DNA of 64,000 nucleotides from Deltaproteobacteria bacterium (GTDB lineage Bacteria; Desulfobacterota; Desulfarculia; Adiutricales; Adiutricaceae): assembly GCA_031265205.1 (NCBI GenBank), contig JAISCZ010000130.1, positions 62,001 to 126,000 on the forward strand, given 5' to 3'. Positions 24,658-64,000 of this stretch are shown here, piece by piece (position 1 is the stretch's first letter; each line of letters opens with the position of its first letter). Below the pieces are notes generated by a model. It was not told the origin of the DNA and did no database searches. It saw only the letters and a list, made by a program, of their open reading frames with translations. A program made the translations under genes and the position numbers.

Positions 24658-24849
24658 GGCGCGTCATTGAGCGGAGCCCGCCAATGGCTATGGGAAACGG
24701 TTATCCGGTCCCACGCGGAAAAGCGCGTCGACAGAGCCTAGCGCTTACGGTAAAATACTTTAGCGAAGGATTGGCGCCGCCCGGGAGCGCGCCTCCCTCT
24801 CCCGTAGCCCGTTCGCGGGCGACCCGCGACACGAAAGGCGGCGTCCCAC

Positions 24850-25464
24850 GTGGAACACAGACATCTTAACCTGACGGAAGAAACGGCTTTCTGTCCTCCG
24901 GCGATCGATGACATAATTTCCCGAGGCGCGTGGCGGGACTGGGTCGACTTGCGCGAAGCGATCCGTAAAGATAGATCGTTACTCGCCGATGTCGAGCGCA
25001 TATGCGAAAACTATTTGGCGACTTCCCCCCCATGCCCTCAGCGCTATTTTTTTTGGTATAACTTTGTCCAAAAACGAAAATTGCTTACTGATTGGGATGT
25101 CCCGCTGTCCTCTTTCCGCGGGTCGCGCTCAATTCCCAAAACAACTCTCATTGATGGCGTGACAGCCGCTCTCAACGCCAAACGACAAGCGTCTCGAGCC
25201 ACTAGCCTCGACGCCGCCGACACAAGCCAACGTCTCTCGGAAATTATAGGTCAGCCTCAATCCGCTCTCCGTCAATCGGCGATCGCCGCTATCATTTCCC
25301 GAGGATCGTTACAGGCCTGGCGCGACTTACGCGACGCGCTCTGGAAAGACAAATCGCTACTCGACGATATCGAGCTTATCTGCGCGCGAAATTTCGACAC
25401 TCCCAACCCAGGGCGTTATCATTTTTGGAATTACTATGCCAAAACCCGTAAAGCCTCTTCCTGA
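24850..25464 (+). CDS. putative antitoxin: fused tandem duplicate with toxin remnant
   Basis: This 204-residue ORF (GTG start) has two copies of an unrecognised ~58-residue domain, IISRGAWRDWVDLREAIRKD… at ~22-80 and IISRGSLQAWRDLRDALWKD… at ~146-203, both ending in a [YN]F/YY…K-x-RK motif. Between them, residues ~80-140 resemble the N-terminus of the following toxin: LLTDWDVPLSS and TTLIDGVTAALNAKRQAS align with the toxin's PLPDWEDLLSA and TTLVGGTAAAIHAKRHVS. The ORF therefore looks like antitoxin, eroded toxin fragment, antitoxin. Its stop overlaps the toxin start by 29 bases, as in coupled toxin-antitoxin pairs. The antitoxin role is inferred from position. Confidence 0.6.
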   Translation: MEHRHLNLTEETAFCPPAIDDIISRGAWRDWVDLREAIRKDRSLLADVERICENYLATSPPCPQRYFFWYNFVQKRKLLTDWDVPLSSFRGSRSIPKTTLIDGVTAALNAKRQASRATSLDAADTSQRLSEIIGQPQSALRQSAIAAIISRGSLQAWRDLRDALWKDKSLLDDIELICARNFDTPNPGRYHFWNYYAKTRKASS

Positions 25465-26227
25465 TTGGGAGGATTTGCTGTCAGCGGCCTGCGGGTTACA
25501 ATCTATTGTTCCGGGGACCACGCTAGTTGGAGGAACGGCGGCGGCTATCCACGCCAAACGCCACGTGTCAAATGACGCGGATCACGTCATGACCGATTTA
25601 CGTCGTAACTTCAACGAAATCCTCCATCAACTTGAATCCGCGGTCGGCTGGAAAACGAAGCGCCCCGTCGCTCCGGTCATGGTTCTCGGTAGTCTAGACG
25701 GGATAGAGACTGGCGTGAGGCGGCTAATCAGGTCCGAGCCATTGGAGACGGTAGACATCGACTTTCGCGGCGAGAAACTTACCGTGCCTACGGAAGCGGA
25801 AATCTTGCGGATAAAAGCCTTTCTCATCCTCAAGCGTAACGCTACTAGGGATTACTTAGATTTCACCGCGCTCGCTGACCATATGGGCGCCGTTAAATCC
25901 AATGAAGCTTTACGTAAATTCGATAAGCTGTATCCGCAAGAAAGCGGTGAATCCGCCTTGCAGCAACTCATGGCCCAGACCTCGTACCCACTTCCCCACG
26001 ATCTGGCCGAAACCGATCTTTCCACGTATAAAAACCTCGCGCCCAGATGGCAAAACTGGAAAAATGTCATGGAAACGCTCATGCGGCTGGCGGTAGACAT
26101 TTTCGATCTCGCGCCCGCGCCAGCGCCGCCCCCCCAAGTCCGCCCAAGCCCAGTTTCTAAGGCGAGCGGCCCGGAGGATCGCCGCGACTCGCGAGCCCGC
26201 GCGGCTCCAAAAATTAAGGTCCCTTGA
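25436..26227 (+). CDS. AbiEii/DUF1814-like nucleotidyltransferase toxin
   Basis: The 263-residue protein carries a polymerase-beta-type nucleotidyltransferase motif: LVGGTAAAIHAKR at ~31-43 and SNDADHVMTDL at ~45-55 (GGT, then DxD). Further on are ILRIKAFLILKRNATRDYLDFTAL (~118-141), matching the Lys/Arg and RDYxD elements of AbiEii-like toxins. The last 45 residues are Pro/Ala-rich and basic. Toxins of this class transfer nucleotides to tRNA or other targets and give abortive phage defence. Two homologs occur at 62974-63687 and 63691-64000. Confidence 0.72.
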   Translation: MPKPVKPLPDWEDLLSAACGLQSIVPGTTLVGGTAAAIHAKRHVSNDADHVMTDLRRNFNEILHQLESAVGWKTKRPVAPVMVLGSLDGIETGVRRLIRSEPLETVDIDFRGEKLTVPTEAEILRIKAFLILKRNATRDYLDFTALADHMGAVKSNEALRKFDKLYPQESGESALQQLMAQTSYPLPHDLAETDLSTYKNLAPRWQNWKNVMETLMRLAVDIFDLAPAPAPPPQVRPSPVSKASGPEDRRDSRARAAPKIKVP

Positions 26228-26266
26228 AAGCGGAGGCCCGCGCCATGTCGCGCGGGCCTCCGCTTT
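26227..26266. terminator. bidirectional hairpin terminator
   Basis: Perfect 16-bp arms (AAAGCGGAGGCCCGCG with CGCGGGCCTCCGCTTT) flank an eight-base loop between two convergent genes. The T tract is short on both sides. Confidence 0.65.
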
Positions 26267-62973: not shown

Positions 62974-63687
62974 CTACGGATCGTAAGGGCGTGGCTGGAA
63001 TCCTTGGCAGGACGCGTCGAAAATATCAATGGAAAGTTTTTGGAGAACCGCGGTGGTCCTCTCCCAAACCCTCCATTCGGGGCCGAACTCTTCATTGGTT
63101 TCAAGGCGCGCGGTCGCCAAATCGTAAGGAAGCGGGGTGGAAATCATATCCAAGAGCTGGACAAGCAAAAACCGTTCTTCTCTTAGAGAATAGAAACGAT
63201 CGAAATCCTTCAGCGCCGTGGCCGCCATGGAAGCTCCTAACCGAGTGGAAAGCGCCGCCAGATCAACGTAGTCGCGGGTGGAATTTCTTAAAAGAGCGAG
63301 TCCGCACTTGATCCTTAAAATTTCAGCGTCGGATGGCACAATCGTCGATAAACCATCTCGCTCGAAAGATATAGTTTCCAGAGGCAAGATTCTGGACAAC
63401 TGAAACACGGTTACTTCAATCATATATAAATTAACTGAGTTGGAATTCCGAACCTCTGGCCAGGGTCCACGGGAGCCGCTGATGATTTCGAGCTGGCGGA
63501 CAATTTCTTGAGAGTCAGGATATTCGGCCAAGCTGGCGGACGGGGATCCGCCGCCGACAAAATGGGCTCGCGAGCCACAGATTGCGCTTAACGCGGCGTC
63601 CCACGCTGGCATGGGTCTGGAAGAGTCGCCTAGGGGGACGCCTTTGGGAATTGGCGGCAATTTATAGGTAAATACGGGGAATGTCAC
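62974..63687 (-). CDS. nucleotidyltransferase-toxin paralog with lost catalytic motif
   Basis: The 237-residue protein (GTG start) is clearly homologous to the toxin at 25436-26227: PSDAEILRIKCGLALLRNSTRDYVDLAALSTRLGAS, split, aligns with PTEAEILRIKAFLILKRNATRDYLDF, and STPLPYDLATA with SYPLPHDLAET. The N-terminal PAWDAALSAICG also aligns. At the active-site position it reads FVGGGSPSASLAEYPDSQ, so the GGT is changed and the DxD pair is missing. It starts three bases after the stop of the upstream homolog. It may be an inactive toxin relative or an immunity-like decoy. Confidence 0.6.
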   Translation of the reverse strand: MTFPVFTYKLPPIPKGVPLGDSSRPMPAWDAALSAICGSRAHFVGGGSPSASLAEYPDSQEIVRQLEIISGSRGPWPEVRNSNSVNLYMIEVTVFQLSRILPLETISFERDGLSTIVPSDAEILRIKCGLALLRNSTRDYVDLAALSTRLGASMAATALKDFDRFYSLREERFLLVQLLDMISTPLPYDLATARLETNEEFGPEWRVWERTTAVLQKLSIDIFDASCQGFQPRPYDP

Positions 63688-63690
63688 ACG

Positions 63691-64000
63691 CTATGGCCTC
63701 GGTCTAAAGGAGGAGGGTTTTTCTTCCAGGCGGGGGGAATCTGATAAATCAAACGCTAATAGCGTAAGCTGTTTGGCGATATTCTCCCATTTTCGCCATT
63801 TAGGTATAACGTTTTTGTACCCTCCGAGGCTAATTTTATGCAAATCCATAGGCTTCGGCTGACTCAGCCGGCTCTGAAGAAGGCGTAACGCCGACTCACC
63901 ATTTTCTAACGGATAAATCCTATCAAGATCCCGCAACGCGTCGCTTGTTTTTACGGAACCAGCTTTCTCGAACAAAGCCGCCAGATTCAAATAATCTCGC
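63691..64000 (-). CDS. nucleotidyltransferase-toxin paralog (partial, 5' end outside)
   Basis: About 103 codons of the C-terminal part are visible and the gene continues past the right edge. RDYLNLAALFEKAGSVKTSDALRD, IYPLENGESALRLLQ and GGYKNVIPKWRKWENIAKQL, in sequence, match the toxin at 25436-26227 (RDYLDFTAL, YPQESGESALQQL, YKNLAPRWQNWKNVM). The catalytic N-terminus is not in the window, so activity cannot be judged. It is translationally coupled to the next paralog. Confidence 0.65.
   Translation of the reverse strand, partial: RDYLNLAALFEKAGSVKTSDALRDLDRIYPLENGESALRLLQSRLSQPKPMDLHKISLGGYKNVIPKWRKWENIAKQLTLLAFDLSDSPRLEEKPSSFRPRP

Follow-up and report, generated by a model that had tools for sequence, protein, structure and literature searches.

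The two described systems that come closest to the locus discussed here are the MenAT1 pair of Mycobacterium tuberculosis (Rv0078B-Rv0078A) and the type IV AbiE system, AbiEi-AbiEii. The antitoxin of the first, MenA1, is a 68-aa helical protein made of one long and one short helix, while the roles of residues T39, D41, K137 and D152 of its toxin, MenT1, have been described in the same work (PMC10435456). MenA1 and MenA3 are unrelated to each other. In the second system AbiEi is a two-domain winged-helix repressor, the gene of which overlaps abiEii by 4 nt in Streptococcus agalactiae, and the DUF1814 family to which the toxin belongs has four motifs, written as hG[G/S] ... DhD, K...R and +DxxD (PMC3985639).

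The locus lies within a stretch of 64,000 nucleotides of a deltaproteobacterial genome, hereafter the window, and consists of two overlapping genes. The first encodes two related segments of about 65 aa, A and B, on either side of a toxin-like segment, T', in the order A-T'-B, and the second encodes an intact toxin-like nucleotidyltransferase, T. The features are as follows:

24728-24756, + strand: promoter-like hexamers 5' of the cassette, a consensus match only
24850-25464, + strand: open reading frame A-T'-B, 204 aa, GTG start
24850-25083, + strand: copy A, a complete antitoxin-like domain of ~78 aa with a GTG start ('VEHRHLNLTEETAFCPPAIDDIISRG...QRYFFWYNFVQ')
25064-25066, + strand: TTG in copy A at the position of the family's toxin ATG (alignment A6, 19 sequences)
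25067-25088, + strand: stretch with a net loss of one base relative to copy B, which brings the antitoxin and the toxin remnant into one frame
25078-25269, + strand: T', remnant of the first ~69 toxin residues, with DG for GG and the DxD lost
25258-25461, + strand: copy B, a second antitoxin-like domain, closed by a TGA stop at 25462-25464; its HRHL N-terminus is gone, AIDD has become AIAA and a Q has become G
25259-25285, + strand: duplication junction, where toxin codon ~69 is joined to antitoxin codon ~15
25436-26227, + strand: T, an intact AbiEii/DUF1814 (MenT-like) nucleotidyltransferase, 263 aa
25436-25464, + strand: 29 nt shared by T and the end of B, an overlap length found in most homologous loci
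26227-26266, + strand: perfect 17-bp inverted repeat directly 3' of the T stop, a possible terminator

An RNA hairpin around the start of T was also looked for and was not significant (z -1.45). The reading that we favour, and consider probable, is that A is a working antitoxin and T a working toxin, with T'-B being a decaying insert left by a tandem duplication.

The basis of this reading is a repeat in the DNA itself. Positions 24881-25268 recur at 25259-25660, covering the end of the small helical gene together with the first ~69 codons of T. Alignment of 24850-25275 with 25270-25680 gave a score of 94.5 against a shuffle maximum of 19 (n=500), the toxin-only DNA (25080-25275 with 25455-25660) scored 30 against a maximum of 15 (n=1000), and the local protein alignment of T' in the product of the first open reading frame with T scored 104 against a maximum of 56 (n=2000), while an independent repeat finder returned 24881-25032 and 25259-25410 as 70% identical at a spacing of 378. 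The preliminary description of this DNA had proposed two copies of one domain with a toxin-like segment between them, arising by tandem duplication with in-frame fusion, and both the architecture and the nucleotide similarity on which that proposal turned are thus borne out. As the copies differ by at least 30%, a collapsed or chimeric assembly of repeats was rejected as their source.

The offset between the two copies, followed along the alignment, is 378 at first, falls to 372 past a 6-nt in-frame gap in B, becomes 373 past the frame join and reaches 376 past a 3-nt in-frame gap in T', so that every gap other than the frame join is a multiple of three. Copy A had earlier been described as four bases shorter than copy B at the join; the progression from 372 through 373 to 376 resolves these four bases into a single base, which does join the frames, and a separate gap of one codon. 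In alignment A6 the distance from the start codon to TGATTGGG is 25 nt in copy A and 26 nt in copy B, and owing to this net loss ahead of TGATTGGG a frame that once ended there now continues through T' into B. At the position of the toxin start, TATG has become TTTG, which also changes Y to F in copy A. The sequence at the junction, AATCCGCTCTCCGTC (25259), is similar to both parental ends (24881 and 25635), a likeness consistent with a tandem duplication through short homology. Since the repeat has one end within A, near codon 12-15, and the other within T, near codon 69, the simplest history is one in which the C-terminal half of the toxin was never copied, and it probably never was. The view that the first toxin lost its catalytic part therefore holds as regards the outcome, GG having become DG, the DxD having been lost and the C-terminal part being absent, but a loss following duplication of the full gene is not the simplest route to it.

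The one-base join is read in a single draft assembly and might instead reflect a sequencing error close to a run of the base A. Copy A would then end at TGA 25089-25091, and T'-B would be either a separate open reading frame (from TTG 25064) or untranslated. The join does adjoin such runs (CCAAAAACGAAAATTG), and the genome is a draft in 187 contigs with 84.8% completeness; against this, T' lacks the ATG that a separate T'-B frame would need, and T' and B are both free of stops in the fused frame, so that we regard an error at this point as an unlikely explanation.

Relatives of the cassette place the duplication in time. Scanning with profiles, with each species represented by one genome, recovered 167 relatives of T, the best 80 of which were retained and come from Proteobacteria, Gemmatimonadota, Verrucomicrobia, Chloroflexi and others. 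Single-domain homologues do stand next to such toxins: exactly one A, overlapping or abutting T, lies immediately upstream in 77 of these best 80 of 167 loci, and none of the 80 has two A domains, two of the three other loci starting at a contig edge. The overlap of the two genes is 29 nt in most loci, across phyla. Within the same taxonomic family 13 of 37 genomes carry A, with two A domains in one open reading frame occurring in this genome only, and each of the closest toxins (G013, G009 and G024, 63-67% identical to T) is preceded by a single A. As the relatives, including the closest orthologues, have a single A, A-T'-B is a derived form peculiar to this genome; within the loci searched, and judged from their sequences, the two-domain form is unique to it. 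An ancestral two-domain form was rejected, being seen in none of these homologues. The proportion of synonymous differences between A and B (pS) is 0.43, as against 0.54-0.79 between A and its three closest orthologues, and A and B cluster together with a bootstrap of 71-73%, which together indicate that the duplication postdates the divergence from known relatives. An origin of B from another locus was likewise rejected, its nearest relative by synonymous distance being A, with moderate bootstrap.

The same genome holds three further loci, each with a single A, a T-like gene (T1) and a divergent second T-like gene without the DxD (T2). A second cassette of the family lies at the end of the window (62974-64000, - strand, continuing into L009) and has one A gene, T1 and a T2 that is divergent and without the DxD region. 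The T2 genes (L009 2975-3688, L010 3827-4558, L011 3443-4168 and L022 2209-2925) encode conserved nucleotidyltransferase-like proteins lacking the DxD and directly follow T1 in several loci; T2 may be a pseudoenzyme that has its own role. Two T1 genes look damaged, one at L010 4562-5278, with GVD for DxD, and one at L011 4172-4962, with a frame break. Within the DNA compared, the window and five related loci show no conserved flanking synteny, and the cassette thus appears to change place. The toxin of the window alone, used as a query against viral and genome contigs, gave no match, such searches needing profiles. A single A gene is present on the IMG/VR contig IMGVR_UViG_3300009784_000102 (L171 5001-5219), which suggests carriage by a mobile element or phage.

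As for the toxin, T alone falls short of the Pfam AbiEii cut-off of 22.5 bits (15.3 bits, E 0.02), whereas its homologues, the majority of which have an identity of 58-65% in alignment A4, exceed it with 27.8-35.2 bits (up to E 1.6e-8). Its AlphaFold model has a pLDDT of 86.7 and a nucleotidyltransferase fold, and its top matches among solved structures are MenT1 (Z 15.2, rmsd 3.0 over 170 residues) and TglT/MenT3 (14.1), followed by MenT4 (Z 13.0) and JHP933 (12.7). DUF1814 motifs I-IV can be recognized as VGG31-33, D47-A-D49, K127/R134 and RDYLD138-142, with the residues being GG32-33, S45-x-D47-x-D49, K127, R134 and R138-D-x-x-D142; among 31 homologues S45, D47 and K127 do not vary, and D142 is nearly invariant. 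S45, D47, K127 and D142 correspond to T39, D41, K137 and D152 of MenT1, with a lysine-to-aspartate spacing of 15 in both. By analogy with these relatives T is predicted to be a working MenT-type toxin, its toxicity being taken from its family. Residues 42-43 (window 25559-25564), just before the DxD, are R-H in T and H-R in nearly all homologues, and an arginine four residues ahead of the first aspartate of motif II is essential in AbiEii (PMC3985639); by that analogy the displaced arginine might leave T weakened.

Copy A, 64-69% identical to its single-domain counterparts in the closest relatives, is predicted to fold into a domain of four helices. Its family has no match in Pfam, NCBIfam or PADLOC; a 73-position PHROG of unknown function, phrog_31755, matches residues 19-61 (E 4.5e-5). 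Searches of PDB sequences with profiles of A and T gave chance-level matches only, with no MenA chain or other solved chain being matched by the profile of A. A fold search with the A-T'-B model returned nothing above Z 7.2, a value that is not meaningful for helical domains, and the absence of MenA1 from its matches is no evidence of a difference. The assignment of A as the putative antitoxin draws on gene order and on the analogy with MenAT and MenA1, from which neutralisation of T is inferred. In the open-access literature we found no report of the A family, nor of a tandem antitoxin that carries a toxin remnant.

Selection on the four segments was compared by fitting a codon model to them jointly with branch times in common; fitted alone, T' gives no estimate of omega. 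With 64-68 codons and synonymous sites partly saturated, omega was 0.14 for A and 0.11 for T, against backgrounds of 0.18 and 0.21 respectively, and was 0.63 for B and 1.0 for T'. Equality with the background was rejected for B (2dlnL 7.2) and T' (2dlnL 9.9), and omega = 1 was rejected for A (2dlnL 11.5) and T (8.4) while standing for B (2dlnL 0.9) and T' (0.0). An earlier fit to the A/B tree alone gave 0.29 for A and 0.86 for B, leaving the ranking unchanged. Of the 42 positions conserved in the toxin, 33 are kept in T and 11 in T'; of the 29 conserved in the antitoxin family, A keeps 22 and B 17. In the model of A-T'-B the domains A and B are confident and helical, with T' having mostly block pLDDT values of 39-67. 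With T' neutral, B relaxed, and A and T constrained, the pattern does not look like that of a selected toxin mimic.

These results bear on the suggestion, made in the preliminary description, of a two-headed antitoxin with a toxin-mimic linker, in which A and B would bind two toxins or two faces of one, and T' would be a spacer mimicking or competing with the toxin. Such a protein would have a precedent in MenA1, which binds two MenT1 molecules (PMC10435456), and would account for two helical domains of high local confidence in an intact reading frame; yet neutrality of T' and relaxation of B contradict it, B has lost the conserved HRHL start, the DD pair and the Q, T' retains few of the conserved toxin positions in a stretch predicted with low confidence, and none of the homologous loci searched has the form. 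We therefore judge selection for this architecture to be improbable, and a natural two-headed antitoxin in which B and the dead toxin piece are kept for altered toxin stoichiometry or regulation to be no more likely. The same data speak to the possibility that the whole cassette is a decaying pseudogene with no part under selection. The relaxation of B and T', the R-H swap in T and the visible damage to two of the three paralogous toxins (the frame break in L011 and the GVD of L010) would all fit; but the rejection of omega = 1 attests to purifying selection on A and T, and T is full-length with all four DUF1814 motifs bar the swapped pair, which makes this the case for which we see very little likelihood.

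Under the favoured reading of a tandem duplication with a decaying insert, the ancestral state is the widespread two-gene cassette, in which an all-helical, antitoxin-like A of ~75 aa overlaps a MenT-type T. In the lineage of the window a segment of ~378 nt, bounded by codon ~12-15 of A and codon ~69 of T, was duplicated in tandem to give A | T'::B | T, after which copy A lost a net base ahead of its old stop and T' its ATG, leaving a single open reading frame of 204 aa; the base and ATG losses are seen in the sequence, and it is their order that we infer. Like MenT toxins, T would extend the 3' ends of tRNA by adding nucleotides, and A would keep it inactive by binding, perhaps promoting modification of the conserved Ser45 beside the DxD. 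T' and B would be decaying passengers. The T'-B frame may have stayed open because the start of T sits in the last codons of the upstream frame, so that passage of the ribosome through T'-B is probably required for coupled translation of T. The probability that neither T' nor B would acquire a stop under neutral drift is 0.016-0.09 at 0.2-0.5 substitutions per site, and the argument for coupling from the open frame is thus statistically weak.

The locus shows in readable form how duplication in tandem over two overlapping genes can yield a fused, partly dead protein with the operon unbroken. The more useful lead is the broader A-T cassette family, in which the small antitoxin-like A, absent from Pfam, NCBIfam and PADLOC, directly precedes MenT-type toxins in many phyla and would be easily tested with them as a toxin-antitoxin pair.

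In comparison with the known systems, the cassette resembles AbiE in its toxin, family members of which reach 35 bits in Pfam AbiEii, above the cut-off of 22.5, and differs from it in A, a protein of 78 aa with a four-helix model, no Pfam match and no sign of the N-terminal winged helix-turn-helix of AbiEi. With MenAT1 it shares the arrangement in which the gene of a small helical antitoxin precedes that of a DUF1814 nucleotidyltransferase, MenT1 being the best structural match of T, with corresponding catalytic residues and lysine-to-aspartate spacing; it differs in the four helices modelled in A as against the two of MenA1 (PMC10435456), in the lack of a sequence match between A and MenA1, and in the duplicated antitoxin, none having been described for MenAT1. 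The single-domain A-T cassettes (L091-L170; Thiocapsa, Thiothrix and Ectothiorhodospira among their carriers) differ from the locus in the window by having one A and no toxin remnant, and are like it in gene families, in gene order and usually in the 29-nt overlap.
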